DNA of 64,000 nucleotides from Lichina pygmaea. Its lineage: Eukaryota; Ascomycota; Lichinomycetes; Lichinales; Lichinaceae. The position numbers and the translations under genes are program-made. Below the pieces are notes generated by a model that was given only the letters and a program-made list of their open reading frames with translations, made no database searches and had not been told where the DNA came from. Below are positions 542 through 29,955 of this stretch, one piece after another. Location of the stretch: assembly GCA_963422465.1 (NCBI GenBank), contig OY730170.1, positions 2,170,001 through 2,234,000 of the forward strand, read 5' to 3'. Positions within the stretch are counted from its first letter, which is position 1; every line of letters starts with the position of its first letter.

Positions 542-994
542 TCAGACCAAGTCAAATTCCTCTGTTCTGATTGTCATGCCATGGACACTCAGTCTCAGGC
601 TCTTGGTCTCCTTTGTCACTTGTCCTTCATCTTTGGAGAGTGGTGTTCTGTTCACTACTGTCAATTGGTAAGGGTCTTTCTTGCCTTGGACTGGAACCTT
701 GTTTCTTCTGGCAAAGCTTTCTGACATGAAGTTGCCAGTTGCACCAGAGTTGATTATAGCCTTAGCCAACCACCCATTGACTCTGATCTTGATGTGAAAG
801 TGCAGGCTGCAGGCTGTCATGTCAAGGCTCAGCTTGACTTCTTCCTCCCGGGGTGTTGTCTTGCCTGCTCTTCCGACCCCAGTTTTGAAGAGTGCTGCTA
901 GTTTTTTAAGCTGCCTAGGCTCTGGGCCTGACGCTCTACCGTGTGTTGTTTGCATTGTGTGGTGAGGCATCGTTCCCACAGGTCTTGGTTGCAA
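542..994 (-). pseudogene. gypsy-1 retropepsin-like region, catalytic Asp replaced
   Basis: This minus-strand open stretch encodes about 150 residues between gag and RT of gypsy-1. It carries a retropepsin-type core reading AIINSGATGNF, where the family has D-S/T-G. The catalytic aspartate codon is therefore AAC instead of GAC, in a TCG context (TCGAC to TCAAC). That is what a C-to-T change on the opposite strand at a CpG gives. The protease should be dead. The stretch ends in a stop before the RT. The position between the CCHC gag and RT is the normal gypsy gag-PR-RT order. Confidence 0.7.
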
Positions 995-1084
995 TCATCT
1001 TGTTCAGGGTTGACCCTTTGGATGTGCATATTCCATCATGCTTCCACCTCGGACTCTGGGAACCACATCTTCCTTCTTTTCTCT

Positions 1085-1098
1085 AGAAGGTGTTCCTT
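1085..1098. repeat. target-site duplication, left copy, of chimeric LINE
   Basis: AGAAGGTGTTCCTT occurs here and again at 6532-6545. The two copies are identical and flank the chimeric element exactly; the gypsy-1 sequence is continuous when one copy and the insert are removed. This supports insertion of 1099-6531 as one unit by target-primed reverse transcription. Confidence 0.9.
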
Positions 1099-1099
1099 C

Positions 1100-1975
1100 G
1101 ACAGACGACTACCGTGTACGCTACAGCCTGAAGCCAGCCCCACAGCTGGTGGATGTGAAGTCTAGGCGTCTGATAGAGCACCTCTGGAGTAGTCAAGAGG
1201 AGTTCTCGTCATGTCACCCTCCTAGCAGAGTCTCCAGCTAACGTGTGAGGATCTGCTAGGGGGGGAGTGGCCTTGGCACTGCGGTGTTGTTAATCGAACA
1301 CAGACCACCTGTTAAAGAAGGAGAGTGGTCGTACGAGGAGACGTCGCTGCTCCAGTGCCTAAGGGCTGTGTGATAGCCAAAGTGCTGGCTTGATGGTTTT
1401 GCCTAAGGCCTTGCCACGAAGTCTCTTCGTACAATCCACAATCTGGGGCCAGGGGACTAGGTTATCCAGTGGGCCAACAGGTGCAACCAGGGCCCCACAG
1501 GCGACAGTGGACCAAGGAGAACTTCTCCCTACTTGGTTAGTGGGCTGGAAAGGCAGCCCTGCAGGTGCTGGCACGGCCTGCAGGGTCTGTAAGGCCTACG
1601 AGGCATGGTCGGCCTTTGTACAAGAGATCTGCGAAGGTAACGTGAAACAGTTAATAACTGCGAGGTGTGGCATATAATGGCAGTGACGGAGGTAGGGTCT
1701 GGGCCTACTACGAGACTGTCTATATGGCCCGAGAGGACGGATGCGCATGCCGGTTCGTACGGAGTGCAGGCTTAGACTGCAAACAACAAGCTCAGGGAGC
1801 AAACTACAGTTGGAGCGTGGGCTCTGGGCTGGTGACCCAGCGCTCCGAAGCAGGATCCCAGGGGTGAGCATGTACAGCGGAGTGCAAGAGACCTCGGGAC
1901 TGTGGGAAAGTGTGGTAGAGACCCTGTGGGGGGGTGCCAACTCTACACTATGTTCTGGCATAGTACGACTGTGGC
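1100..1975 (+). repeat. Donor segment (non-LINE 5' part of chimera), copy A
   Basis: GC-richer than the LINE and without any domain I recognise. It is ~90% similar by eye to the inverted copy at 27988-28863, and both copies end at the same sequence, TGGCATAGTACGACTGTGGC. The first ~140 bp keep an open frame ending at 1241 (residues SLKPAPQLVDVKSRRL in the middle) that is also open in the second copy. The following ~730 bp contain several short open frames but no convincing protein. It could be the 3' end of an mRNA (C-terminus plus 3' UTR), or part of another repeat. No tRNA or rRNA signature is evident. Confidence 0.75.
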
Positions 1976-3035
1976 TACTGGCCTCACCAACAGAATCTTC
2001 CAGGAGCTGGAGAATATCAACAAGCGGCTGGACAAACAAGAAACCAAGCCATCATATGCCCAGACTGTCCAAAAATCTATTCCAGCACAAATCCCTCTAC
2101 CTGCAAGAATTCTCAAAGAAGTTCTTGTACATCCTGGTATCCAGCCACCTGACATGGCTAATAGAACTCACATCCAGCTTTTCCAGACTCTTCAAGACAG
2201 ACTACCCAGCCCCTACAACAAGCAGGTCAGAGCAGTAAGGAAACTTCCTTCAGGGGATATCCTTATTAACACAGAAAGCCAAGAGACTAAAGTCTTCCTA
2301 GAGAAAAACCCTGCCTGGGTATCAGCTATCTTCACAAAGGAAGCAACCATCCAGCCCAAGAGATTCCCAGTTCTGATCCATGGAGTCAGAACAGAAGATA
2401 TCCAACCTGAAGACCTGGAGAAAACCTGCCAGATAATCCAGAACAGCAACCTATCTCTGAGCAAACAAATCACCATCCTGAGAGCCTACTGGTCTAAGAA
2501 GGCTATAGCTCAAAAGAAGCCAGTTACCTCTCTCCACCTGGATCTGGCTACCCCTGAACAAGCCAATCTTTTGATTGAGAGTGGGCTAGTGCTGGGGCAC
2601 AGGATGCATGAAGCAGAACCTTTCCTGGCAGACACAGTCATTGCACAATGTTTCAAGTGCTTTGGCTATAGGCACCAAGCACGCTTCTGCAAGAACAAAG
2701 CTGTGTGTAGTGTCTGTGGAGGCCAGCATGAAAGGAGAGCCTGCCAAGTTCCTGAACAGCTTCTCAAGCCAAAATGCTGCAACTGCAGAGGAGCTCACCC
2801 AGCCTGGGCCAGTGTCTGTCCAGTACACCAGGAAGCAGCCAAGAAGGCAAGAGAAGCATGGAACACACGCCCAGGAAAATATGAGATCCCAACAGCTACC
2901 TCTGTTCCAGCTCTACAACCCCCCCCAGTTATGTCTTTCCCTCTCTCTCAGTCTCTACCAGGAGGGAAAAAATGTAAAACAGCTGAGCCAAGCAGAAGCT
3001 CAGAGCAACTCAGAGGTGCACTCCCAGAAGTGTAA
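1950..3035 (+). CDS. LINE-A ORF1 (gag-like, three CCHC knuckles), chimeric start
   Basis: Encodes ~361 residues. The first ATG in frame (1950) lies in the last 26 bp of the donor segment, so the start MFWHSTTVA comes from the donor and LINE-A gag begins near residue 10. A coiled, charged N-terminus (LENINKRLDKQ) precedes an RRM-like central part also present in LINE-B ORF1. Three zinc knuckles follow: CFKCFGYRHQARFC, CSVCGGQHERRAC and CCNCRGAHPAWASVC. It should bind the element RNA as a ribonucleoprotein. A TAA at 3033-3035 stops it early; past it the same frame runs to a TGA at 3117-3119 overlapping the ORF2 ATG. LINE-B ORF1 is 467 residues, so this copy lacks roughly 80 N-terminal residues. 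Confidence 0.75.
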   Translation: MFWHSTTVATGLTNRIFQELENINKRLDKQETKPSYAQTVQKSIPAQIPLPARILKEVLVHPGIQPPDMANRTHIQLFQTLQDRLPSPYNKQVRAVRKLPSGDILINTESQETKVFLEKNPAWVSAIFTKEATIQPKRFPVLIHGVRTEDIQPEDLEKTCQIIQNSNLSLSKQITILRAYWSKKAIAQKKPVTSLHLDLATPEQANLLIESGLVLGHRMHEAEPFLADTVIAQCFKCFGYRHQARFCKNKAVCSVCGGQHERRACQVPEQLLKPKCCNCRGAHPAWASVCPVHQEAAKKAREAWNTRPGKYEIPTATSVPALQPPPVMSFPLSQSLPGGKKCKTAEPSRSSEQLRGALPEV

Positions 3036-3115
3036 ATTCTTTCTTCAAGATCAGCCAACTCTGGAGGAAAGCTACCAGCTAACTCCTTCAAGATCTTTGA
3101 TGCTGAGATGTCTGC

Positions 3116-6100
3116 ATGAAAGACACAAAGCTGACACTTCTCCAGTATAATATGCAAAAAAGCCAATCAGTCCAAGAGCTACTGCTAGCAACCTCAGCTC
3201 TCCAAGAGGTGGACATTATTGCACTTCAAGAGCCCTGGAAAAACCCTCACCTAGAAACAAGCACTTCAACTGTTTTCTCTTCCTTTCTTCCTCTCTACTG
3301 TTCAGAGATTGGCAGAACACTTTTTCTTATTAATAAAAATCTGAAACTCTCTTCTCTTCATCCTACTTTCTGGAATAAAGACTTTGTTTCTCTTGAAATC
3401 TACTTGGAAAACTCTCCTACTTCTCTTTGGGTACATAATCTCTACTTCACCCCATCAAGTCAAGAAAATTACACAGAGGCATCAGAAGCTCTTCTCTGTT
3501 TACTCCAAAATGCTTTACAAGAACAAGGACAACATATTCTTCTCACAGACTCAAATCTTCACCACCCAGACTGGTCAAAGAAAAGAAGACTGTACTCTGA
3601 GACTGCAAACAAGTTTCAAGACCTAATGAAAGATTTAAATCTGGATTTAGCTATTGCACCTTTCACCCCAACCAGAGCAAGATCTCTTTCTGAAAAACCA
3701 TGTTCTGCTATTGATCTGTCTTTTATTTCTTCTTCTCTTTCTAACTCTCTGATCTTCTCTAAAGTGGCTCTTCAGTTCTTTCATGGGTCTGACCACAGAC
3801 CTGTACTAACCTGCCTGGACCTGGATCCTCCAAGGAAAATCTGGAAACAAGAAAGAAACTGGAGAACACTGGACTCAAACCTTGCAAGAGTAGAGTGTGA
3901 GAAGCTACACCTGCCCTTCCACTTCCAAGACAAATATGAAGTGGATGAGTACTTGGAGTATCTTGACAACTTTCTCCAAGAAATAGCAAGCAAATCCACA
4001 CAGCTCCAGAAGCAATCTGGCCACTCAGTTCCCTGGTGGAATCAAGAGATCCAAAACAAGATTAAAGAGAAAAGAAGAGTAAGAAGAAAAGTGCAAAAAA
4101 AGCAAGCAAGTCAAGAGGAACTTGAGCAAGCAACTAAGCTCAAGAAAAAGGCAGTCAGAGATGGAAAACAGAACACTTTCAGACACCAAATCCATGAGCT
4201 GGCCAGCTCTTCAAAGTTCTGGAAGCTTGCAAAGTGGGGAAAGTCCAAAGCCAACAAGACTTCTGATCTTCCTCTGGTTCCTGACCTGGAAACACAAGAA
4301 GGAATAGCCAAAACCTTTGAGGAAAAGACTAAAGCCTTCTCACAACAGTTCTTTCCAAAAGCTCTAGTTCCAGAACCAGGCTCAGAAAGCTCCCAGACTA
4401 TCTCTGAGATACAGCTCTCCCAGGAGGTAACATGTGAAGAAGTGGAGCAAATTGTGGCCAAGAAGAAACCTTTCACAGCAGGAGGGAGAGATAAGCTGCC
4501 AAATGGATTTCTGAGAGCTCTGGGGTCTAGGTTCTGCCAAGCTCTAGCTATTCTGACTTCAACATGCTGGAAACTGGAGTACTTCCCTGAAAGATTTAAG
4601 AGTACAAAAACAGTCTGCTTGAGGAAACCTGGCGAGGGAACCTACAATCAAGCTAAAGCCTGGTGCCCTATAGCTCTGCTAAACACAACAGGCAAGCTGA
4701 TGGAAGCTATTGCTGCAGCCAGACTAAGCAAGATAGCAGAAGAAGCTGGACTATTGCCAGATATCCAGATGAGCTTTAGGAAAGGAAGATCCACAGAAGC
4801 AGCACTTTTCCTTCTAACCTCCCAAGTGGAAAAAGTCTGGAAGGAAGGCATGGTTGCATCCCTACTCTCACTGGATATCTCAGGAGCCTATGACAGAGTT
4901 CTCCCCAAGATACTACAGCAAATTCTGAAAAGAAAAGGAATACCTGCCTGGCTAGCTTCCTGGATCTACTCCTTCTGTGATAAGTGCTCTACCACTCTTG
5001 TCTTTGATGATTCTGAGTCTTGTTCAATTTCTATTCATTGTGGAGTTTCTCAAGGTTCTCCATTATCCCCTATTCTTTTTCTATTCTACATTTCTGAATT
5101 GCATGAGACTGTGCATACTCCCTCTTCTGGTGTATCTGCCCTGGGGTTTGCAGATGATACAAATCTGCTTGCTTTTGGTCACTCCTTGAAAAGTAATCTT
5201 CTGAAGTTAAAGAACACACACCACAAATGTGTATCCTGGGCTGCAAGACGTGGAATGGTCTTCTCACCTGAGAAATATAAAATACTTCATTGTTCCAGAA
5301 GAAGATCAGACAATCTTCAGCTCAAGCTCAGACTGGGGGATGTGATTCTCAAATCAAAAGAAGAAGTGCAAGTACTTGGAGTGTACCTAGATGCAAAGCT
5401 CCACTGGCACAAACACCAGAGGATTATTCTTCAAAAAGCACAGAAAGCACTCTCTTCTCTTTCTAGAACTTCCTATTCTACTTGGGGCTTTCCAGTTCAC
5501 ACATCACGTCTGGTGTACACTGCTATACTGAGATCTCTACTGAGCTATGCAGTGGGGATCTGGTTTAACCCTCTAAGAAAATCCTCCAATATCTCTTCTC
5601 TTGTTTCATTTCAAAACAGATGCCTAAGACTTATTGGGGGTGTCTTCAAAGCCACTCCTTCTATCAGAGAGTGAGCTTTTTCTTCTACCTCTAAACCTAT
5701 ACTTTAAATTTCACACTGCCTGTTTTCTTTCTTCTATTCAAAACTCCCCTCTCAAATACTTTCTTGACAGTATCTTTTCCACTATTTCCAGCTATGCCTC
5801 TCTCTTGAAGAAACCTTTAAAGGAATCCTCAACTATCTCTCCTAAGTGGAAATTCACTTGGTTAAGTCAAATAACTACTAACCAGGCTAGTTCAAAGAAA
5901 GAACTACAAAAGCTCTTTACTAAAGAGTGGGAAGACCATTGGGAAGAGAAGAAAAGAAGAAGCTATCCAGGCTGGCAGACTTTCTGTCAAAAGCCACACA
6001 AAAACAATCTGAAGCTCTACAAAGAGTTACAGAAAGCTGAGGCAAGTCTGCTACTGCAAATCAGGACTGGAAGAATTGGTCTGGCAAGTTTTCTTTTCAG

Positions 6101-6353
6101 AGCTGGAGTTCCTGACTTCCCTACCCCACTATGTGTGTGTGGCCAAGCAGAAGAAACTGCAAAACATATCACCTCTTCATGCTCTCTTTATTCAAGACAA
6201 AGACAACAAGTCTCTTTTAATCCCCAAGACTTCACCACTATTATTTCAAACCCAGAGCTACTACAGAAGTTCTTGTACTGGTTTATGTCTTTGAAAAGAC
6301 TAAACCAGTTTAATCTAGCTTTCAAACTCCACTATTCCCAATCCAATACCTAG
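3116..6353 (+). pseudogene. LINE-A ORF2: APE endonuclease + reverse transcriptase, frameshifted
   Basis: The first frame runs from the ATG at 3116 to 5674, and the rest continues in another frame to 6353 (~1,080 residues in all). The endonuclease comes first: NMQKSQS, LQEPWKNPH, LLTDSNLHHPDWS and GSDHRPV are the APE/EEP catalytic boxes. The RT core follows: LSLDISGAYD (motif A), GVSQGSPLSP (B), GFADDTNLL (C, catalytic DD intact) and LGVYLDAKLHW (E). The C-terminus has a CVCG...H...C motif. A short deletion near 5660, where the LINE-A copy at 20.1 kb has extra bases, breaks the frame after FKATPSI. I see no RNase H domain. This copy cannot make full-length ORF2 without frameshifting. Confidence 0.85.
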
Positions 6354-6531
6354 ATTCTCTTCTCTTACCAGAAACTTCAAGATTCCTTTTGTTATATTCC
6401 CTAGTCACACCCTGCCTTCAGTTTTTATCCCTTCAAAGGTTTTCTGAAGGAGTTCACTATTAGCTAGAAGATCTGCATGGCTGTAAAGCTACTACCAGTG
6501 TAAGAATCAAACAAAATAAAATAAAATAAAA

Positions 6532-6545
6532 AGAAGGTGTTCCTT
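6532..6545. repeat. target-site duplication, right copy, of chimeric LINE
   Basis: Identical to 1085-1098 (AGAAGGTGTTCCTT). It directly follows the A-rich tail of the LINE, after which gypsy-1 sequence resumes. Confidence 0.9.
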
Positions 6546-8389: not shown

Positions 8390-10396
8390 GCTTGCTGGAG
8401 ACTGGAATACTTTCCAGACAGGTACAAGTCAGCCAAGACAATCTGCCTAAGGAAACCTGGCAAGGGATCCTACTGTCAAGCAAAAGCATGGCACCCTATA
8501 GCTCTCCTGAATACAATTGGGAAGCTAATAGAAGCTATTGCAGCTGCAAGACTAAGTGAACTAGCTGAGAAAGAAAATCTCTTGCCAGAAATCCAGATAG
8601 GATTCAGAAAAGGAAGATCAACAGAATCAGCACTTTTTCTTCTGACCTCCCAGGTAGAAAAGATCTGGAAAGAAGGAATGGTTGCTAGTCTTCTCTCTCT
8701 AGACATCTCTGGAGCCTATGACAGAGTCTTGCCAGAAGTTCTCAGAAAGATCCTGATTAAGAGAAAGATTCCTAAGTGGTTTGTATCCTGGATCTTTTCC
8801 TTCACTACTTCACATACTACCTCTCTGGTGTTTGATGACTCAGAATCCCCCCAGTTCCCTATATACTGTGGAGTCCCTCAAGGATCACCTTTCTCTCCTA
8901 TTCTATTTCTTTTCTATATCTCAGAACTGCACAATACTGTACACACCCCTGAGAAAGGAGTTTCAGCACTTGGTTTTGCAGATGACACTAATCTTCTTGT
9001 ATTCTCCTCTTCCTTGAAAAGAACCTTCTCAAGTTGAAGTCTACATATTCCAAATGTCAGAACTGAGCAAGAAAACATGGTATGAAGTTTGCACCTGAAA
9101 AGTATGAACTTCTCCATTTTTCTAGAAGAAGAAGAGACAATCTTCAGCTCAGTCTAAGACTTGGAGAAGTGGTACTTCAACCAAAAGAAAAAGTGCACAT
9201 CTTGGGACTTTAGTTTGACTGAAAACTTGTCTGGAAAAAACACCAAAAAATCATGTCACAGAAAGCTTCCAAGTATTTCTCAGCTTTATCCAGAAGAACT
9301 TACTCTACTTGGGGACTACCAGTCCTAACAGCATGTCATGTCTACACTGCTATGCTAAGATCTCTTCTTAGTTATGCAGTAGGAGTCTGGTTCAATCCCC
9401 AAAAGAAACTCTCTAATATTATTTCATTATCTACTTTCCAAAATAAATGTTTAAGAACTATAGGAGGTGTCTTTAAAGCCACTCCTATTTTCCTACTTGA
9501 ATCAGAACTATTTCTACCCCCTCTAGACTTATACTTCAAGCTGAGAACAGCATGTTTTCTTTTATCTTTCTATTCAAACACACTACCCAACTCTTCTTCT
9601 ACACTTCTCCACAAACTACACAGTCAAATTTCTCTCTACGTTTCTTCTCTCAGAACTACACCAAAGTCTCTGACAACTATTTCCCTAAACTGGAGAACAG
9701 TCTGGCTGGAACAACTAGCTACTAACCAAGACTTCTCAAAGAAAAGTCTACAGGAGGTTTTCCACAAAGAATAGGAAGCCAGATGGCAGGTAAGCAGAGG
9801 AAATTGTTCTGCTATTTGGGACATGTTCACCAGAAGGCCACAGAAGAAAAACTTCAATATCTTCAAAGATTTGAGAAAAGCTGAGTCTAGTCTATTTCTT
9901 CAAATTCTGTCAGCAAGAATAGGACTGGCCAGTTTTCTTTTCAGAGCAAATGTTCCAGACTTTAACTTCTCTCTATGCACCTGTGGTTTTGGAGAAGAAA
10001 CAGCCCAACACATCACTTTTTTCTGTAGTAAATTTTCAAACCAAAGACAACAAGTCCAATTCCCTCTACAAGATTTCCCATCTATCTTATTCTCCTCCAA
10101 GCTACTTCCTAAACTTCTTTTCTGGTTTATGTCTTTGAAACAACTTGACCAGTTCAACCTAGCCCACCAACTCTCTTTCTAAGCTCTACCAAGTCAACTG
10201 TTTGTTTTAACAAATAGCTACATGTATAAATTTCCTGAGCTACTGCATATTCCACAAGATTTTCCCTAGTCTTTCCCAAGCTCCAGTTTTTATTCCTCCA
10301 AAGATTTTCTGGAGAAACAAACATGTACCTAGAAGTTCTGCATGGCTCTACAGCTAAATCAGTGTAAAAATAAAATAAAATAAAATAAAATAAAAA
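8390..10396 (+). mobile_element. LINE-B1, 5' part cut off by gypsy-1; dead ORF2
   Basis: LINE-B from the middle of ORF2 to the 3' tail. It encodes the RT region (FRKGRSTESALFLL, LSLDISGAYD, GFADDTNLLVF) and the C-terminal CTCGFGEETAQH motif in three pieces (8582-9037, 9253-9774, 9823-10182) separated by frameshifts and stops. The 3' UTR ends in (AAAAT)n at ~10370-10396. It is 97-98% similar by eye to LINE-B3 over the same part. The 5' edge is the gypsy-1 LTR, so the missing half is outside the window. Confidence 0.85.
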
Positions 10397-13345
10397 ACAC
10401 CAACTGTCAACCTTCTCCAGTATAATGTGCAGAAAAGCCAGACATGTCAAAATCTTCTACTAGCTAACCCCAGACTCCAGGAAGTGGATCTGATTGCACT
10501 TCAAGAACTATAGAGAAATCCATACCAGGAAAAAAGTACTTCAACAGTCTTCTCAGACTTCTACCCTCTTCAAGACCAAGTGTTAGGGAGAACTCTGGTT
10601 CTAATCAACAGAAGAATACAGAGGTCAGCTACAACCCCTGTGTTCTGGAGCAAGAATTTAACATCACTGGAGATAAGAGTGCAAGCAAAAGTGTTCTGGG
10701 TACATAACCTGTACTTCACACCTACAAATCAGGAAAACTACAGAGTATCAGCAGAAACTCTACTGGATGTACTGGCCCAGGCACTGGAGAAAGAAGGAGA
10801 ACATATTCTTCTGACTGACTCAAACCTCCACCACCCATCCTGGTCAAAATCTTCCCAACTCTACTCTGAACTAGCTACTAAGTTCAAAGAACTCACAGAT
10901 GATCAAGGACTAGAGCTGGCAATAGCAACTTTCACACCAACAAGAGCAAGAACACTGGCAGAGTGTCCCTCCTCTGCTATTGACTTATTTTTTATTTCTA
11001 TATCACTTCTTAATTCCTTTATTTCTTCCCAGATTAACCTAGACTTCCACACAGGTTCAGACCACAGACCAGTTCAGACAATCCTAAGTCTGGAAACACC
11101 AAAGAAAGCCAGAACCTACCAAAGAAACTGGAGAACACTAGATCTGGACCAAGTCAAGAAAGAAGCTAAGAATCTTCCCCCTATTCCACCACTACTTAAC
11201 AGAGAGGGAGTGGACAACTATCTGGAGAACCTGGACAAAGCTCTTCAAGAACTGGCTGACAAGACAACAAAACCTCTGAGAGACTCAAAGTACACTGTTC
11301 CCTGGTGGAACCAAGAGATTAAAGAGAAAATTAAAGAGGAAAGAAAACTAAGAAGAAAAGTTTTCCAAAACCAAGAACCAGTCTACAACCTTGAAAGAGT
11401 AATAAAGAAAAAAAAACACCTGATCAAGAATGCTAAAAGAAAGATATTCAGAGAACAACTCCAGAACCTGGCTGAAACACAAAAGCACTGGAAAATAGCC
11501 AAGTGGGGTAAAGAAAAAGCTGGCAAACTACCAGAACTTCCAATTGTTCAAGAGCTCACAAAGCAAGATGGAGAAACTGCCAGAACTTTCACAGAAAAGG
11601 TAGAAGTATTCAAAACCCAGTTCTTCCCTCTAACTCTCCAGCCAGTACCAGAATCCCAGGATCAGCCAGCCAACCACCAACACCAGCTATCTCAGGAAAT
11701 CTCCAAAGAAGATATTCACAATATTCTGAAAAAGAAAAACCTTTTTACAGCTCCTGGAAAAGACACTCTAACTAATGGATTTCTAAAGGTATTAGGAGAC
11801 TCTTTCAATGAAAACATAGCCAAAGTTCTGGAGGCCTGCTGGAAGCTAGAATATTTCCCTGACAGATACAAAACAGCCAGAACAATATGCTTAAGAAAGT
11901 CTAGCAAAAAATCCTATTGCTATGCCAAAGCTTGGAGGCCAATAGCACTTCTCAACACAATTAGGAAGCTGATGGAAGCTCTGGCAGCCACAAAGCTAAG
12001 TGAACTGGCTGAGAAAGAAAACCTGCTACCAGAAATCCAGATGGACTTCAGAAAAGGAAGATCAACTGAGTCTGTCACTTCCCAAGTTGAAAAAGTCTGG
12101 AAGGAAGGAATGGTAGCCAGTCTTCTTTCTCTGGATATCTCAGGAGCTTATGATAGAGTTCTGCCAGAAATTCTCAAGAAAATCCTGGAGAGAAAAGGAA
12201 TCCCCAGCTGGTTTGTTAACTAGATCTTTTCTTTCACTACCTAAAGAAAAACCTCTCTTGTTCTTGATGATTCAGAGTCTTCTTTATTTCCAGTACACTG
12301 TGGAGTCCCTCAAGGTTCACCTCTCTCTCCTATTTTATTTCTTTTCTACATTTCAGATCTTCATAATATTGTTCATACACCAGAGAAAAGTGTATCAGCT
12401 CTGGGCTTTGCAGATGATAAAAACCTTCTGGCATTTTCCTCTTCTCTTAAAAGCAATCTCCTGAAGCTAAAGTCTACTCACTCCAAGTGTTTAGACTGGG
12501 CAAGAAAACATAGAATGAAGTTTGCACCTGAAAAGTATGAACTTCTCCATTTTTCTAGAAGAAGAACAGATAATCTTCAGCTCAGTCTAAGACTTGGAGA
12601 AGTGGTACTACAGCCTAAGGAAGTAGTGTGTATTCTGGGACTACACTGTGATTCCAAGCTTCTCTGGAAAAAACACCAGAAAATCATGTTACAGAAAGCT
12701 TCCAAGTTTTTCTCAGCACTTTCTAGAACTACTTTTTCTACATGGGGTCTACCTGTTATCTCTGCTAGACTTGTCTACACTGCAATACTGAGATCACTTC
12801 TCAGCTATGCAGTAGGAGTCTGGTTCAATCCCCACAAAAAACATTCTAATATTTCTTCTCTAAATCTTTTCCAGACTAAATATCTAAAAACTATAGGAGG
12901 TGTCTTCAAAGCTACTCCTACATTTCTTATTGAAGGAGAACTATTCCTACCACCTCTTGATCTTTATTTCAAATTCAGAACAGCAACTTTCCTACAATCT
13001 TTCTATTTTTCTAATACTTCTTCTAATCCTCTCTCCTCACTTCTCTATAAGCTCTTTTCCCAGATCACTGTTTTTGTTTCTACTCTGAGAACACCTCCAA
13101 AGTCTCTGTCTACTGTCACACCTAACTGGAAAGCAAGATGGCTAGAAGAACTAACCACTAACCAAGATTACTCTAAGAAACAATTTCAAGAAGTGTTTCA
13201 GAAAGTGGGAAGCCAGATGGCAGGCAAACAGACAGAAGTGTTCTCCAGTCTGGGAGCTATTTTGCAGACTACCCCAAAGGAAAAATCTCAAAGTTTTCAA
13301 AGACTTGAGAAAAGCTGAAGCTAGTCTTTACTTGCAGAATCAAAA
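10397..13345 (+). mobile_element. LINE-B2, lacking both ends; degenerate ORF2
   Basis: Starts at the beginning of ORF2 (LQYNVQKSQ-like) directly after the B1 tail and stops inside the ORF2 C-terminus. Open pieces are 10580-12223 (endonuclease through early RT: LLTDSNLHHPSWS, GSDHRPV, LSLDISGAYD) and 12515-13318 (RT end and thumb). A TAG replaces a Trp at 12221-12223, and frameshifts follow. It is more diverged from B3 than B1 is. B1 probably inserted into it, but the left junction is outside the window. Confidence 0.8.
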
Positions 13346-14026
13346 CTCTTCCCAGTACCACATCGTCAAAGGACCATCACTTTTGACAATCAGCGAATTT
13401 GGTAATAAGTCCTGGAAACCAGTCGCGAAGCTTGCTGAAACCACCCACTTCCCAAGAGTGAAAACCCATCACTTTTCTGAATCAGGCCTATTGGTCAAAA
13501 GTTGTGATCCCAGAACTCACGTCTTCTTGCTTCAACTACCAACCACCCAGCCACAACAAGAGTGAGAGGGACCAGAGGTATTCTGAAGGACTGGGCCAAG
13601 CCCTACCTACCTTGGAACAATCAGCTCTGAGACTAAAACTCAGGATTGAGCCAGCACTCCCAGTCTATCAGAGATAAAACATGAAACCTCTCCTAAAAGT
13701 GAGAAACACCCACCAACAAGGAGATCAGGGCTCCCAGGATAAGAGGAATAGTTTAGAGCTTGCCTCTAGTGCTGGTAGAGTTGAAAAACTCTAGGAAAGC
13801 TCAGGCAGGGGGTGTGGTCCCTAGCTTGAGTTAATACAACCAGATTTCCCTAGAGTCTAGTTGGAAAAGACTGCCGAGGAAAGTACAGTCTTGGGGAGTG
13901 GTCCCAGGATTGTGCAACTACTGCTAGGAACCAGGTGACCCTTTGCGAACAACTGGAAGAAGCCTCCAAAAGAGCCTCACCAATCCCAGCCAAAAAGAAC
14001 TGCTGGAAGACACCTAAAATCACATA
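13346..14026 (+). other. LINE-B 5' UTR / internal promoter region
   Basis: About 680 bp between the end of LINE-B2 similarity and the ORF1 ATG, without a long ORF of its own. LINEs carry their promoter in this part. I see no sequence match to it elsewhere in the window, so its exact 5' end is uncertain by tens of bases. Confidence 0.5.
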
Positions 14027-15430
14027 ATGTCAAAGAAAAAACCAGAGAAAGAGAAAGAAAACCAGCCTTCTCCAAGCTCCCAGCAACCCCCAGTGGCTAA
14101 CTCCCTGACAGACCAATCCCAGACTCAAGAAAAAGAAGAAGAGAAGGGGCTGACACCTCCCCAGCTAGTGGAAGAATGGCTTATCCACACAAAAGCTCCC
14201 CAACATATCAAAAAAGCATGGGATAGTATTCTGTCCAAAGTGGCAGAAGCTCTGGACAAAGATGTCTCTACTCACTCACCTAACTCCCAGAGTCTCCAGA
14301 AGATACTTGAGAGACTGGACAGTATTGAGAAACAAGTCCAAAAACAAAACACCAAGCCAACATATGCCCAGGCAGCCCAGAAAACAGTAGGACAGGAAAT
14401 CCCTGTTCCAACCAGAATCCACAGTGAAATCACTATCAGACCTGGAACTCAGACTGGCCAGCTAGCAAAAAGAACACCAGCCCAGCTCATGGAAGCTCTC
14501 AAGAAGAAAACACCACTCTCCTGCCAAAAAGAAATAAGAGCAGCCAGAAAACTACCCTCAGGAGATATTATAATCTCTCTGGAAACTCCTCAAGCCAAGA
14601 CTCAGCTAGAGGAAAACAAGGACTGGATCCCAGCTGTCTTTACAGCAGAGGCCAAGATATCACCCAGAATCTTTCCAGTGCTAGTCCATGGGGTGCAGAC
14701 AAAAAACTTCAAGCCAGAAAACCTGGAGGAAACAAAAAAGACAATCTTCTCCCAAAATCCTGGGATGGAAAGTAAGGTCAACATCCTAAGAACCTACTGG
14801 TCCAGAAAAGCCAAACTCCTCCAGAAGCCAGTCACATCTCTACATCTGGATCTAGCCACCCCAGAGCAAGCAAACCTCCTAATTGAGAAAGGAGTAGTTC
14901 TAGGATACACTCTACATGAAGTAGGACCAGCCCTGCTAGCAACATCAGTCACCCAGTGCTACAAATGTGCTAGGTTTGGACACCAAGCACGCACTTGCCA
15001 AGCCCAAGCCCAGTGCACAGCCTGTGAAGGAAAGCATGCCAGAAGAGACTGCCAGACTTCTCCAGAAACTCTAACACCAAAATGTGCAAACTGCAAGGGA
15101 AACCACCCAGCCTGGTCAAAGTCCTGCCAGAAAAAACAGGAAGCAATCCAGAAAGCAAGAGAGGTATGGCTAGCAAGACCAGGGAGGTACACAATAGCTC
15201 CCAGACTAGCTCTACCTCAGACTCCCTCAACACAAGAAAAAGAGCCAAGTCTACAAGACAGACAAGAAGCTAAGAAAAGAAAACAAGGGGAAGTACTAAG
15301 AGCATGCTCAAGCTCAAGACTGAACACTCAGCTCCCCACTTTCCCACTTGCACAGAACTCAGAGTTCCAAATCAACATACCCAGAAAAAAAGCTACTGAG
15401 ATCTTGGAAGACTCTAGCCAAGAGGATTAA
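14027..15430 (+). CDS. LINE-B ORF1, gag-like RNA-binding protein
   Basis: 467 residues, intact, starting at an ATG. The N-terminus is Lys/Glu/Gln-rich. A short coiled region follows (KILERLDSIEKQVQKQNTK, ~105-125), then an RRM-like part (~170-290; TSLHLDLATPEQANLLIEKG). Three zinc knuckles occupy ~305-370: CYKCARFGHQARTC, CTACEGKHARRDC and CANCKGNHPAWSKSC. The tail is basic and Ser/Thr-rich. In LINEs this protein coats element RNA and helps reverse transcription. Its TAA stop shares the A with the ORF2 ATG. As the only intact LINE protein here, it could in principle act in trans. Confidence 0.85.
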   Translation: MSKKKPEKEKENQPSPSSQQPPVANSLTDQSQTQEKEEEKGLTPPQLVEEWLIHTKAPQHIKKAWDSILSKVAEALDKDVSTHSPNSQSLQKILERLDSIEKQVQKQNTKPTYAQAAQKTVGQEIPVPTRIHSEITIRPGTQTGQLAKRTPAQLMEALKKKTPLSCQKEIRAARKLPSGDIIISLETPQAKTQLEENKDWIPAVFTAEAKISPRIFPVLVHGVQTKNFKPENLEETKKTIFSQNPGMESKVNILRTYWSRKAKLLQKPVTSLHLDLATPEQANLLIEKGVVLGYTLHEVGPALLATSVTQCYKCARFGHQARTCQAQAQCTACEGKHARRDCQTSPETLTPKCANCKGNHPAWSKSCQKKQEAIQKAREVWLARPGRYTIAPRLALPQTPSTQEKEPSLQDRQEAKKRKQGEVLRACSSSRLNTQLPTFPLAQNSEFQINIPRKKATEILEDSSQED

Positions 15431-18400
15431 TGAGTTACTCCACACTTAACCTTCTCCAGTACAATGTCCAGAAAAGCCAGACATGCCAAGAACTTCTACT
15501 GGCAAACCCTAGACTACAGGAAGTGGACATCATCACTCTGCAAGAACCCTGGAAAAACCCCCACCAAGAATCAAGCATCTCTACAACATTCTCAGCCTTC
15601 TACCCTTTACAAAGCCAGGAGCTAGGGAGAACACTTGTTCTTGTTAACAGAAGAATTTTGCGGTCATCTATAAGCCTAATTTTCTGGAGTAAAGATCTAG
15701 TCTCCTTGGAGATAAGAGTTCAAACAAAGTCATTCTGGATCCACAACCTCTATTTCACACCCACAAGCCAAAGGAACTATAGAGAGTCAGCTCAGACTCT
15801 TCTAGACCTACTGGAACAAGCTATCCAAAAAGAGGGTGAACATATTCTCCTGACAGACTCAAATCTCCACCACCCAAGTTGGTCAAAGTCAAGCTAGCTA
15901 TACTCAGAACTGGCCTTATCCTTCAAGAACCTAACAGACAAATAGGGACTAGAGCTGGCAATAGCTCCCTACACACCAACAAGAGCAAGAACTCTTCTAG
16001 AACCACCTTCATCAGCAATTGATCTTTCTTTTATTTCAAGTTCTTTACTTAATTCTCTTATTTACTCACAAATTAACATGAGATTCCACACAGGGTCAGA
16101 CCACAGACCAGTGCACACAATTCTCAGTCTGGAGACTCCAAGAAAAACCAGAACAGACAAAAAGAACTGGAGAACTCTGGATGCTAGTCAAGCAAGACAA
16201 GAAGCTGATAACCTACCACCTATTCCATCTCTTACTAGCAAGAAAGAAGTGGATGATTACCTGGAAAGACTGGACAAAACTCTCCAAGAAATTGCAAACA
16301 AGACAACCCAACCTTGCAAAGAGTCCAGGTATGCAGTACCATGGTGGAACCAGGGTATCAAAGAAATAATCCAGGAGGAAAGAAAAGTAAGAAGAAAAGT
16401 ACTCCAAGGCCAAGAGGAAACCACCAGACTAGAGGAGATAACTAAAAAGAAAAAGAGTCTGATCAGACAAGCCAAAAGAAAGACATTCAGAACACATCTC
16501 CACCAGCTAGCAGAAACCCAGGACTACTGGAGAATTGCCAAATGGGGAAAAGAAAAAGCCGGCAAAGTTCCTGACCTACCAATAGTCCCAGAACTTATAC
16601 GACAACAAGGACAGCTGGCAAAGTCTTTTGAAGAGAAAACAGAAGCTTTCAGGACTCAATTCTTCCCTCTTCCCCTACAGCCAGAGCCAGAGGAACAGAA
16701 CCTGCCAGAAGAAACCCAGGAATGGCACCTATCCCAAGAAGTCTCCAAGGAAGAAGTACAAGAGGTTCTAAAGAAGAAAAAACCTCTCTCAGCACCAGGC
16801 CAAGATACTCTACCAAATGGATTTCTAAGAGCACTGGGAGACCCTTTCAACAAAAGAATTGCTAAGGTTTTGGAGGCTTGCTGGAGACTGGAATACTTTC
16901 CAGACAGGTAAAAGTCAGCCAAGACAATCTGCCTAAGGAAACCTGGCAAGGGATCCTACTGTCAAGCAAAAGCATGGCGCCCTATAGCTCTCCTGAATAC
17001 AATTGGGAAGCTAATGGAAGCTATTGCAGCTGCAAGAATAAGTGAACTAGCTGAGAAAGAAAATCTCTTGCCAGAAATCCAGATGGGATTCAGAAAAGGA
17101 AGATCAACAGAATCAGCACTTTTTCTTCTGACCTCCCAGGTAGAAAAGATCTGGAAAGAAGGAATGGTTGCTAGTCTTCTCTCTCTAGACATCTCTGGAG
17201 CCTATGACAGAGTCTTGCCAGAAGTTCTCAGAAAGATCCTGATTAAGAGAAAGATTCCTAAGTGGTTTGTATCCTGGATCTTTTCCTTCACTACTTCATG
17301 TACTACCTCTCTGGTGTTTGATGACTCAGAATCCCCCCAGTTCCCTATATACTGTGGAGTCTCTCAAGGATCACTTTTCTCTCCTATTCTATTTCTTTTC
17401 TATATCTCAGAACTGCACAATACTGTACACACCCCTGAGAAAGGAGTTTCAGCACTTGGTTTTGCAGACAACACTAATCTTCTTGCATTCTCCTCTTCCT
17501 TGAAAAGCAACCGTCTCAAGTTGAAGTCTACACATTCCAAATGTCAGGACTGGGCAAGAAAACATAGTATGAAGTTTGCACCTGAAAAGTATGAACTTCT
17601 CCATTTTTCTAGAAGAAGAAGAGACAATCTTCAGCTCAGTCTAAGACTTGGAGAAGTGGTACTTCAACCAAAAGAAGAAGTGCGCATCTTGGGACTTTAC
17701 TTTGACTCAAAACTTGTCTGGAAAAAACACCACAAAATCATGTTACAGAAAGTCTCCAAATATTTCTCAGCTTTATCCAGAACAACCTACTCTACTTGGG
17801 GACTACCAGTCCTAACAGCACGTCATGTCTACACTGCTATACTAAGATCTCTTCTTAGTTATGCAGTAGGAGTCTGGTTCAATCCCCAAAAGAAACTCTC
17901 TAATATTATTTCATTATCTACTTTCCAAAATAAATGTTTAAGAACTATAGGAGGTGTCTTTAAAGCCACTCCTATTTTCCTACTTGAATCAGAACTGTTT
18001 CTACCCCCTCTAGACTTATACTTCAAGCTGAGAACAGCATGTTTTCTTTCATCTTTCTATTCAAACACACTACCCAACTCTCCTTCTACACTTCTCCACA
18101 AACTACACAGTCAAATTTCTCTCTATGTTTCCTCTCTCAGAACTACACCAAAGTCTCTGACAACTATTTCTCTAAACTGGAGAACAGTCTGGCTGGAACA
18201 ACTAACTACTAACCAAGACTTCTCAAAGAAAAGTCTACAGGAGGTTTTCCACAAAGAATGGGAAGCCAGATGGCAGGTAAGCAGAGGAAATTGTTCTGCT
18301 GTTTGGGACATGTTCACCAGAAGGCCACAGAAGAAAAACCTCAATATCTTCAAAGATTTGAGAAAAGCTGAGTCTAGTCTATTTCTTCAAATTCTGTCAG

Positions 18401-18669
18401 CAAGAATAGGACTGGCCAGTTTTCTTTTCAGAGCAAATGTTCCAGACTTTAACTCCCCTCTATGCACATGTAGTTTTGGAGAAGAAACAGCCCAACACAT
18501 CACTTTTTTCTGTAACAAATTTTCAAACCAAAGACAACAAGTCCAATTCCCTCTACAAAATTTCCCATCTATCTTATTCTCCTCCAAGCTACTTCCTAAA
18601 CTTCTTTTCTGGTTTATGTCTTTGAAAAGACTTGACCAGTTCAACCTAGCCCACCAACTCTCTTTCTAA
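15430..18669 (+). pseudogene. LINE-B ORF2: APE endonuclease + RT, three nonsense codons
   Basis: One uninterrupted frame of 1,079 codons apart from stops at 15895-15897, 15943-15945 and 16909-16911. The first two are TAG where B2 has CAA (Gln), fitting CAG to TAG; the third is TAA for Tyr. The endonuclease (NVQKSQ, LQEPWKNPH, LLTDSNLHHPSW, GSDHRPV) is followed by RT (LSLDISGAYD, GVSQGSLFSP, GFADNTNLLAF). Motif C reads FADN rather than FADD, so the second catalytic Asp is also lost. The C-terminus has CTCSFGEETAQHITFFC. There is no RNase H between the RT thumb and the C-terminal domain. The lack of frameshifts suggests recent inactivation. Confidence 0.85.
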
Positions 18670-18880
18670 GTTCTACCAAGTCAACTGTTTGTTTTAACAA
18701 ATAGCTACATGTACAAATTTCCTTAGCTACTGCATATTCCACAAGATTTTCCCTAGTCTCTCCCAAGCTCCAGTTTTTATTCCTCCAAAAGTTTTCTGGA
18801 GAAACAAACATGTACCTAGAAGTTCTGCATGGCTCTACAGCTAAATCAGTGTAAGAATACAATAAATAAATAAATAAATA

Positions 18881-20980
18881 CTGCTGAAGAAGTGGAACAA
18901 ATCCTGAACAAAAAGAAACCTTTCACAGCAGGGGGAAAAGATAAGCTGCCAAATGGATTTCTGAAAGCTCTGGGTTCCAAGTTCTGCCAAGCTATAGCTG
19001 TTCTTACATCAACATGCTGGAGACTGGAATACTTTCCAGAGAGGTTCAAGAATGCAAAGACAGTCTGTCTAAGAAAACCTGGTAAAGGATGCTATAACCA
19101 AGCTAAAGCCTGGCGCCCTATAGCTTTGCTAAACACAACTGGCAAGCTGATGGAAGCTATTACAGCAACCAGGCTAAGCAAGGCAGCAGAAGAAGCTAGA
19201 CTTTTGCCAGAAATCCAGATGGGCTTCAGGAAAGGAAGATCAACTGAATCAGCACTCTTCCTACTAACTTCCCAAGTGGAAAAAGTCTGGAAGGAAGGCA
19301 TGGTTGCATCTCTACTTTCTCTGGATATCTCAGGAGCCTATGACAGAGTTCTACCTAAGATCCTCCAACAAATCCTAGAGAGAAAAGGAATTCCTCTCTG
19401 GCTATCTTCCTGGATTCTCTCTTTCTGCACCAGTCGTTCTACCACTCTTGTGTTTGATGACTCTGAGTCTTCTGCTATTCCTATTCACTGTGGAGTTCCC
19501 CAAGATTCCCCTTTATCTCGTATTCTATTTCTATTTTACATTTCTGAACTTCATGAAACTGTACACTCTCCTTCCACTGGTGTTTCTGCTCTGGGATTTG
19601 CAGATGATACAAATCTGCTTGCATTTGGACACTCTAAAAAGCAACCTTCTGAAGTTAAAGAACACACACCTCAAATGTCTATCATGGGCTGCAAGACATG
19701 GAATAGTCTTCTCTCCTGAGAAATATGAAATACTTCATTTTTCCAGAAGAAGATCAGACAATCTTCAGCTTAAGCTCAGACTGGGGAATGTGATTCTAAG
19801 ACCAAAAGAAGAAGTGCGAGTATTAGGAGTGTACCTGGATGCAAAACTCCACTGGCATAAGCACCAGAGACCTATTCTTCAAAAAGCCCAGAAAGCACTT
19901 TCCTCTCTTTCTAGAACTTCATATTCTACTTGGGGTTTCCCAGTCCTCACATCACGTCTTGTGTACACTGCAATACTCAGATCTTTACTGAGTTATGCTG
20001 TGGGGATCTGGTACAATCCTTTAAGAAAATCTTCTAATATCTCTTCTCTTAGCACATTCCAGAACAAATGCCTGAGACTTATTGGAGGTGCCTTCAAAGC
20101 CACTCCATCTATCTTATTAGAGAGTGAGCTTTTTCTTTTACCTCTAGATCTCTATTTCAAATTTTGCACAGCCTGTTTTCTCTCTTCTATTCAAACCTCC
20201 TCTCTGAAAACACTTCTGGACAATATCTTTTCCAATATCTCCCACTATGCCTCTTCTGTGAAGAAACCTTTAAAGGAATCCTCAACTATCTCCCCCTATT
20301 GGAAGTTCACTTGGTTAAACCAATTAACTACTAACCAGGCAAGTTCAAAGAAAGAACTACAGAAACTCTTTGTTAAAGAGTGGGAAAACCAATGGGAGGA
20401 GAAGAAAAGAAAATGCTACTCTGGGTGGCAGGTGTTTTGTCAAAAGCCTCACCACAACAACCTGAAACTCTACAAAGAGCTACAGAAAGCTGAGGCAAGT
20501 CTACTACTACAAACCAGAACTGGGAGAATTGGCCTGGCAAGTTTTCTATTCAGAGCTGGAGTTCCAGACTTTCCTACCCCTTTATGTGTCTGTGGTCAAG
20601 CAGAAGAGACAGTGAAACATATCACCTCTTCATGCTCTCTTTATTCAAGTCAAAGACAGCAAGCTCCTTTTAATTCTCAAGATTTCACTTCTATTATTTC
20701 AAACCCAGAGCTTCTACAGAAGTTTCTATACTGGTTCATGTCTTTGAAAAGACTGAACCAGTTTAATCTGGCTTTCAAACTCCACTATTCACACTCTAAT
20801 ATCTAGAAGTTTCTTTCTACCAGTCACTACAAGATTTCCTTTTGCTACATCCTCTAGTCACCCCCAGTCTTCAGTTTTTATTCCTCTAAAGGTTTTCTGA
20901 AGAAAATCACTCTTAGCTAGAAGATCTGCATGGCTGAAAAGCTACTATCAGTGTAAGAATCAAATAAAATAAAATAAAAA
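18881..20980 (+). mobile_element. LINE-A2, 5'-truncated, frameshifted ORF2
   Basis: Begins just before the RT (EEVEQILNKKKPF) and ends with an (AAAAT)n tail at ~20965-20980. ORF2 is open in 18892-19719 and then, after a 2-bp loss near 19633, in another frame to 20806 with FADDTNLLAF before the break and CVCGQAEETVKH near the end. The same 2-bp loss is present in the inverted copy at 34258-37651. Its 3' tail abuts gypsy-2 pol sequence, so it probably inserted into gypsy-2. Confidence 0.85.
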
Positions 20981-27987: not shown

Positions 27988-28863
27988 GCCACAGTCGTAC
28001 TATGCCAGAACATAGTGTAGAGTTGGCACCCCCCCACAGGGTCTCTACCACACTTTCCCACAGTCCCAAGGTCTCTTGCACTCTGCTGTACATGCTCACC
28101 CCTGGGACCCTGCTTCGGAGTGCTGGGTCACCAGCCCAGAGCCCACACTCCAACTGTAGTTTGCTCCCTGAGCTTGTTGTTTGCAGCCTAAGCCTGCACT
28201 CTGTACAAACCAGCATACGCATCCATCCTCTCAGACTATATAGACAGTCTTGTAGTAGGCCCAGGCTCTACCTCTGTCACTGCCATTATATGCCATGCCT
28301 CACAGTTGTTAACTGTTTTGTGTTACCTTTGCAGATCTCTTGTACAAAGGCCGACTATTCCTCGCAGGCCTTACAGACCCTGCAGGCTGTGCCAGCACCT
28401 GCAGGGCTGTCTTTCCAGCCCACTAACCAAGTAGGGAGGAGTTCTCCTTGGTCCACTATCACCTGTGGGGCTCCGGTTGCACCTGTTGGCTCACTGGATA
28501 ACCCAGTCCCCTGGCCCCAGATTGTGGATCATACAAAGAGACTTTGTGGCAAGGCCTTAGGCAAAACCATCAAGCCAGCACTTTGGCTATCACACAGCCC
28601 TTAGGCACTGGAGTGGTGATGTCTCCTTGTACAACCACTCTCCTTCTTTAACAGGTGGTCTGTGTTTGATTAACAACACTGCAGTGCCAAGACCACTCCC
28701 CCCCTAGCAGATCCTCACATGTTAGCTGGAGACTCTGCTAGGAGGGTGACATGACGAGAACTCCTCTCGACTACTCCAGAGGTGCCCTATCAGACACCTA
28801 GACTTCACATCCACCAGCTGTGGGGCTGGCTTCAGGCTGTAGTGTACACGGTAGTCGTCTGTC
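27988..28863 (-). repeat. Donor segment, copy B
   Basis: Inverted counterpart of 1100-1975, ending at the same TGGCATAGTACGACTGTGGC. It again keeps the short frame with SLKPAPQLVDVKSR ending at 28722. Here that frame extends upstream across 28863 for ~35 residues, so the donor transcript may be longer than copy A shows. Confidence 0.8.
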
Positions 28864-29103
28864 AGGTGGTTTTCATCTCCCAAGCTTGGTCGCAGTCCTC
28901 TGTTCTGCTGTAGCTGTTTCACGGGGGTGTCCAGGGTGCCTGCGCGACACCTCCGGTGGCCTGTCACTCCGCAACACCAGCAGCTTGACTGGTGACTTGA
29001 TTAGCTCTCAGTGCAGCGACTACGAGCAGCCTGGGAAGCCACCCGCCATCGACTGCCCCGAGGTTCCCAGCCTGCACCACGTGGAGGTTCAAGTTGTTGC
29101 AGG
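28864..29103 (-). other. GC-rich segment, possible further donor sequence
   Basis: 240 bp between the donor copy B and LINE-A5. On the minus strand a frame runs into the donor frame and reads CWCCGVTGHRRC near 28960-28990, loosely like a CCHC knuckle. It could be the 5' continuation of the donor transcript or simply flanking DNA. There is no second copy in the window to decide. Confidence 0.35.
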
Positions 29104-29955
29104 CCTTCTTTTACTTCTAAATCTCTATTTCAAATTTCACAGTCTGTTTTCTCTTTTCTATTCAAACCTTCTCTCTGAAAACACTTCTGGATAATATCTT
29201 TTCTAATATCTCCCACTATGCCTCTTCTGTGAAGAAACCTTTAAAGAAATCCTCAACTATCTCTCCCTATTGGAAGTTCACTTGATTAAACCAATTAATT
29301 ACTAACCAGGCAAGTTCAAAGAAAGAACTACAGAAACTCTTTGTTAAAGAGTGGGAAAACCAATAGGAGGAGAAGAAAAGAAGAAGCTACTCTGGATTGC
29401 AGGTGTTTTGTCAAACACCTCACCACAACAACCTGAAACTCTACAAAAAGCTACAGAAAGCTGAGGTAAGTCTACTACTACAAACTAGAACTGGGAGAAT
29501 TGGCCTGGCAAGTTTTCTATTCAGAGCTGGAGTTCCAGACTTTCCTACCCCTTTATGTGTCTGTGGTCAAGCAGAAGAGACAGTGAAACATATCACCTCT
29601 TCATGCTCTCTTTATTCAAGTCAAAGACAGCAAGCTCCTTTTAATTCTCAAGATTTCACTTCTATTATTTCAAACCCAGAGCTTCTACAGAAGTTTCTAT
29701 ACTGGTTCATGTCTTTGAAAAGACTGAACCAGTTTAATCTGGCTTTCAAACTCCACTATTCACACTCTAATATCTAGAAGTTTCTTTCTACCAGTCACTA
29801 CAAGATTTCCTTTTGCTACATCCTCTAGTCACCCCCAGTCTTCAGTTTTTATTCCTCTAAAGGTTTTCTGAAGAAAATCACTCTTAGCTAGAAGATCTGC
29901 ATGGCTGAAAAGCTACTATCAGTGTAAGAATCAAATAAAAATAAAATAAAAATAG
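29104..29955 (+). mobile_element. LINE-A5, 5'-truncated copy
   Basis: Starts in the RT thumb region (LLLNLYFKF) and runs to a tail of A/T-rich repeats at ~29935-29955. The ORF2 C-terminus is open from 29397 to 29777 with CVCGQAEETVKHITSSC. It is nearly identical to the 3' part of LINE-A2. Its 5' end meets the donor-containing copy head to head. Confidence 0.85.

Follow-up and report, generated by a model that had tools for sequence, protein, structure and literature searches.

Template switching by the reverse transcriptase (RT) of a LINE is usually viewed as an accident in which the acceptor RNAs are picked by their abundance. HDV-like ribozymes are known at the 5' ends of R2 and other non-LTR retrotransposons. 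The closest described counterpart of the system reported here is MINE of Magnaporthe, a set of chimeras between the WEIRD RNA and the MGL LINE, in which WEIRD is 1,113 nt long, about 33 bipartite chimeras use recurrent donor sites with the motif GCC*A/U, and one tripartite chimera is flanked by a 14-bp target-site duplication (TSD); no solo source gene of WEIRD was found (Gogvadze et al. 2007, PMC2104539). In the mammalian U6 snRNA-L1 chimeras cited in the same paper (PMC2104539), a full-length small RNA was placed on a truncated LINE via template switching.

The window, a stretch of 64,000 nt from the ascomycete Lichina pygmaea, contains an insertion with the same fusion architecture, and the Magnaporthe precedent invoked in the preliminary description is apt. 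In both systems the 5' part is a non-coding RNA of nearly equal length (1,113 nt vs 1,117-1,124 nt) and the 3' part is a sense LINE that lacks a varying amount of its 5' end; TSDs, recurrent switch sites and a rare tripartite fusion also occur in both. Three features that characterize MINE are present in Lichina: a second RNA whose 3' end is constant is followed directly by a 5'-truncated, sense-oriented LINE, one TSD surrounds the chimera (in 16 fusions), and the 5' part is full length in most of the fetched copies, although not in the window copy. What is new relative to MINE is the scale (at least 196 copies vs about 33), the use of several donors (four LINE families and one host sequence), the ribozyme-like head formed by a 5' HDV-like fold, and an acceptor-dependent donor motif, since the Lichina unit has subfamilies whose donor motifs differ. 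Homology with WEIRD is unproven, three published WEIRD/MINE primers (PMC3978060) matching the unit no better than shuffled primers.

One insertion in a gypsy element

The insert and its surroundings comprise the following features, in which a bar within a motif marks the junction or insertion site.

1085-1098, plus strand: left target-site duplication AGAAGGTGTTCCTT; target context CT|AGAAGG; empty site in at least 40 gypsy copies
1099-1974, plus strand: A-subfamily unit copy, 5'-truncated (unit nt 242-1117 of 1,117), from the genome-wide segment search
1948-1974, plus strand: unit 3' end, hairpin CTATG-TTCT-GGCATAG and fixed terminus TACGACTGTGG, from the degenerate-pattern search
1974-1975, plus strand: fusion junction GTGG|CTACTGG; LINE-A site 744 in common with copy L119, with L118 at 746
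1975-6531, plus strand: 5'-truncated Tad-like LINE-A, nt 744-5300, with CCHC gag part, endonuclease, RT and A-rich tail
3107-5674, plus strand: LINE-A ORF2 part, endonuclease PF14529 and reverse transcriptase PF00078
6532-6545, plus strand: right target-site duplication AGAAGGTGTTCCTT
27989-29105, minus strand: second window unit, full length, A subfamily (~94%), 3' end joined to LINE-B (from 27988 downwards)
28990-29105, minus strand: predicted HDV-like ribozyme fold, unit nt 1-116 of the second window copy, from its row in the alignment and the pair count; family match on relatives L007, L008 and L003

The preliminary description had reported a 14-bp duplication enclosing both a non-LINE segment and LINE-A, and the repeat is indeed perfect and abuts both ends of the insert, at 1085-1098 and 6532-6545. 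The joined flanks run uninterrupted in at least 40 other gypsy copies at 93-97% identity, mostly across all 240 nt. The empty gypsy site together with the TSD indicates that a single 5,433-bp insert with one 14-bp duplication entered a gypsy copy, and the view that both parts arrived together is thereby upheld. The insert consists of 876 bp of non-LINE sequence (1099-1974) followed by LINE-A (1975-6531); the segment had been given the right length and coordinates (1100-1975) that were one base off. The window insert is therefore one target-primed LINE insertion, the cDNA of which was composed of LINE-A at the 3' side and an unrelated non-coding sequence at the 5' side.

The junction corresponds to nt 744 of the approximately 5.3-kb LINE-A. 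The LINE part, thought to start inside gag, does begin within the gag-holding open frame (nt 434-1801), but the first in-frame ATG, at nt 923, lies downstream of the junction. Further downstream, the ORF2 frame of this copy is broken near position 5674 and resumes in 5628-6353. Positions 8393-20979 of the window contain further LINE copies of several families, nested or abutted, an arrangement well suited to reading the order of insertion.

The repeated unit and its fusion partners

Used as a genome query, the window segment returned hundreds of candidates, with 40 scored copies at about 96%. The flanks of these copies defined a full unit of 1,117 nt that starts with GGCCTGC and ends with ACTGTGG; most fetched copies are full length, and the window copy is without the first 241 nt. 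A second subfamily (B) of similar abundance has a unit of 1,124 nt and is about 82% identical to the first (A). Genome-wide, at least 196 exact matches to a degenerate pattern of the unit 3' end and at least 176 to that of the 5' end were found, with none for the reversed control of either pattern. The base following the unit 3' end is C or T in 188/196 cases and a purine in 8/196. We call the unit non-coding because of its RNA fold and the Magnaporthe precedent, its reading frames having been examined in the open reading frame list of the window. A few predicted pairs with transversions on both sides occur in the unit body (columns 437-706 and 496-599), which suggests from comparison of the copies that the body outside the ribozyme is also a structured RNA. 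The exact core motif of the unit is absent from the viral and prokaryotic contigs searched. Among copies L002-L030, about 70% of the differences from the A-unit consensus (311/445) are CpG transitions; these changes (C>T ahead of a G, G>A behind a C) are not of the CpA type of classical RIP and look like methylated-CpG decay in a filamentous fungus. Judged by its RPL3, whose nearest PDB entries are, on our reading of the codes, the ribosomes of Chaetomium and Neurospora, the host is a filamentous ascomycete, and a Pex24p-type peroxin likewise marks it as fungal.

We read 132 of the 3' junctions, about 80 of the 196 exact 3' ends lying outside that reading. The unit 3' end (...ACTGTGG) is constant in all 132 and directly abuts the partner, which in at least 120 of them is a 5'-truncated LINE. 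The LINE partners are all in sense, their truncation points are scattered, and they fall into four families: LINE-A (95-100% identical to the window copy), LINE-B (~85%), LINE-C (~67%) and the GC-rich LINE-D, which has a CAAT-type tail. The expectation of more fusions at varied LINE positions was thus borne out by well over 100 of them in the genome, with LINE-B, -C and -D as partners besides the predicted LINE-A. The flanks of L065, L090 and L094 are not counted in these partner classes. TSDs of about 8-16 bp surround unit plus partner in 16 fusions, which include all four LINE families; their insertion sites are mostly NT|A (GT|A in 5/16), and the TSD usually abuts the GGCC 5' end exactly. 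In the other fusions tried, the predicted ends were unlocatable or no repeat was present.

Some copies have more than two parts. L003, L007 and L014 are unit-unit-LINE tandems, and L061 consists of a B-unit, about 258 nt of host sequence, about 9 extra nt and a full-length LINE, the host part having a unit-free twin at C1:2970823-2971022. L061 probably arose by two template switches in which a host RNA was picked up, and together with the tandems it points to repeated switching. L061 (with L211 and L212; C1:1-2700) adjoins the telomere repeats of C1, and a piece of gypsy precedes its B-unit.

A source locus or free-standing copies of the segment had also been sought. One solo candidate exists, L009:1243-2391, a unit without a LINE part that lies inside LINE-B between 16-bp direct repeats. 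A source gene with a natural 3' end was not found among the 132 3' flanks read and the 8/196 purine-followed 3' ends, all of which were listed; the only clear deviants among the flanks are L061 and L009, neither of which is convincing as a source. We nevertheless infer that a unit gene with a natural 3' end exists. The insertion site of L009, CT|TC, resembles the donor sites of A-units and differs from the T|A found at most insertions.

The unit resembles a SINE in being non-coding, multicopy and moved by LINE proteins. However, a SINE shares its 3' tail with the partner LINE, whereas the unit ends in ACTGTGG without a LINE-like tail and is added at the 5' side as a template-switch acceptor. 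It is an example of how non-coding RNA is able to multiply in a genome in the absence of a SINE-type 3' tail.

A predicted ribozyme at the unit 5' end

Full-length units match the HDV ribozyme family RF00094 (Rfam), with the predicted cleavage site exactly at unit nt 1. The scores, 40.9 bits (E 0.0023) for L007 of subfamily B, 29.9 bits for L008 of subfamily A and 30.1 bits for L003, are below the Rfam curated cut-off of 50 bits. When 17 distinct sequences were set against an explicit double-pseudoknot model (P1, P2, P3, P1.1 and P4), 98.5% of the 680 cells were paired, compared with 25-42% in a control in which the pairing partners were slid. Invariant features are the cleavage-site G.U, both P1.1 pairs and, at the presumed catalytic place, the C of J4/2. 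Because most covarying pairs arise from CpG transitions, which predominate among the mutations of these copies, covariation is weak on its own, and the case for a ribozyme rests on the fold and its exact position. On this modelling, the unit begins precisely at an HDV-like self-cleaving-ribozyme fold, which would explain its uniform 5' end. Rfam searches of the truncated window segment, in which the fold region is missing, had returned chance matches only, and the fold appeared once the full-length unit was defined.

The fold resembles R2-type HDV-like ribozymes in its nested double pseudoknot from the first nucleotide, its G.U at the cleavage site and the uniform 5' end that goes with it. Unlike those ribozymes, it heads a non-coding RNA and not the LINE that supplies the RT; LINE-A itself has no HDV-family match in Rfam. 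To our knowledge, ribozymes at the 5' ends of retroelements were recognised only after the work on WEIRD and MINE, and the HDV-like fold for that reason offers a specific starting point for explaining the WEIRD RNA of the rice blast fungus.

Donor sites and the origin of the fusions

The sequence of a donor across the junction was read from uncut close relatives of the actual donors (at least 90% identity). A-units are joined at the motif CU|YC: CU is found in 32/39 distinct sites, U at -1 in 37/39 and G at -2 in 0/39. B-units are joined at an A-rich motif, AR|YC, with CU in 0/45 sites and A at -1 or -2 in 41/45. The distribution of CU| between the subfamilies (32/39 A vs 0/45 B) has a Fisher p of about 1e-16 and holds across LINE families. 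In both subfamilies the donor mostly continues with YC. The rule tracks the unit irrespective of LINE family, and AAA|CCCGG, the B site within the host part of L061, conforms to it. The published MINE motif, if read as G|CC(A/U) with CC assigned to the copied LINE part, would resemble the B motif.

Since A- and B-units have different donor motifs on the same LINEs, these alignments suggest that the captured RNA has a share in determining the point at which the RT jumps. A switch site that depends on the subfamily is not predicted by plain wandering of the RT. One RNA has been captured repeatedly, and a two-base donor motif can be predicted from its subfamily, so that the acceptor seems to influence the switch, and the presence of at least 190 copies in one genome provides a natural data set on the choice of switch sites. 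In the U6-L1 chimeras, by contrast, the acceptor is a housekeeping snRNA, whereas the Lichina unit has subfamilies and acceptor-dependent donor sites. Nicking by the LINE endonuclease was considered as a cause of the CU motif and rejected, as LINEs insert at NT|A (GT|A among them) and B-units use another motif.

The explanation that we regard as likely is a template switch of the LINE RT onto a ribozyme-headed non-coding RNA, with the acceptor helping to choose the switch point. A switch of the RT from its own RNA to a second RNA, as first proposed for the window copy, is supported by the TSDs, the fixed unit end, the sense LINE partners and the varied truncations. A non-coding RNA of about 1.12 kb would have its 5' end freed by its own HDV-like ribozyme and would possess a discrete 3' end, ...ACUGUGG, possibly followed by a short tail. 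The RT, copying LINE RNA from the 3' end during target-primed integration, would halt at a short motif, resume on the 3' end of the unit RNA and copy it to the ribozyme-made 5' end, where integration would be completed with a TSD around the whole chimera. In the window copy, the unit RNA would have been copied incompletely, with 5' truncation at unit nt 242.

The YC on the 3' side of the junction is complementary, with wobble allowed, to the terminal GG of the unit. A hypothetical two-base tail lengthens the complementarity at 34/37 sites if it is AG in A-units and at 28/45 if it is UU in B-units, these tails having been picked as the best of 16 dinucleotides. Speculatively, the terminal GG and such a short tail might anchor the acceptor by pairing with the donor bases that the polymerase is about to reach. 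Microhomology with bases past the unit end is not favoured, because non-YC junctions such as L071, L175 and L118 have no extra bases; an extra C is present at a few junctions (L020, L113). A more far-reaching possibility, which we put forward tentatively, is that the unit is a mobile template-switch-acceptor RNA, whose ribozyme makes its 5' end and whose 3' end selects the switch point on LINE or other RNA by pairing or catalysis. If so, it would represent RNA-guided template switching, and it would retrotranspose by another route than SINEs do.

Fusions would require no template switch if the unit inserted solo into LINE DNA and its ribozyme then cut read-through transcripts, yielding unit-LINE RNAs that were retrotransposed. 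L009 would be such a solo insertion, the predicted ribozyme fold would release the required RNAs, and there is some likeness between the CU| of A donor sites and the NT|A at which LINEs insert. We consider this unlikely, because there is one solo unit in 132 junctions, because the partners are sense LINEs whereas all DNA in both orientations would be expected, and because L061 joins host sequence and then a LINE. Moreover, GT|A accounts for 5/16 insertion sites whereas G is never at -2 in the A donors, and the B donor motif differs.

Joining could also have taken place between RNAs before reverse transcription, either by attack of the terminal G on LINE RNA, as in group-I-like reverse splicing, or by cleavage and ligation. 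The terminal G of the unit, the U at -1 in 37/39 A sites and the dependence of the donor motif on the unit are all in keeping with such a reaction. B sites are without U at -1, however, and full-length units have no match to the group I intron family RF00028 (Rfam) up to E 10; a genome-wide search for RF00028 gave four weak matches, none of them labelled as the unit. As a LINE RT is able to switch templates without a second catalyst, joining at the RNA level appears improbable.

Another alternative is that the fusions go back to one master chimera, or a few, formed a single time and afterwards retrotransposed whole, like a composite SINE. A chimeric DNA does bear both the 5' ribozyme and the LINE 3' end, and some junctions recur: LINE-A 744 (L001 and L119), LINE-A 3740 (L013, L024 and L117) and LINE-B 546 (L062 and L110). 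Against this, there are more than 80 distinct donor sites, LINE-A 4004 was used by both an A-unit (L101) and a B-unit (L063), and the placeable units with a common junction are not sisters. L013 and L024, joined at one and the same site, are not sister units in the tree, nor are L119 and L118 (2 nt off) sisters of the window unit, branch support being modest. Master chimeras may account for a minority of copies, and as a general explanation they are very improbable.

The idea that LINE-A, or some LINE subfamily, regularly has the segment as its 5' UTR is scarcely credible and already contradicted: the segment does lie gapless and in sense 5' of the LINE, but about 30 near-identical LINE-A copies extend up to 743 bp 5' of the window junction to a common 5' terminus, AACTCTTCCC, and the unit is fused to four LINE families at scattered positions. 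The finding named beforehand as fatal to the template-switch reading, namely the segment at the 5' end of intact LINE-A, was looked for and did not appear, intact copies having their own 743 bp; among the fetched extended LINE-A copies, the segment is present only in L041, at a different junction. Two independent insertions lying side by side by chance, in a region full of nested elements, are already excluded by the single TSD around both parts, the empty site without either and more than 100 repeats of the arrangement.

Within subfamily B (L079, L083, L103, L115 and other copies), units with a GCGACGA 5' end are mostly found on LINE-D and those with GCGAAGA mostly on LINE-A, -B or -C; a partner preference inside the subfamily is possible.
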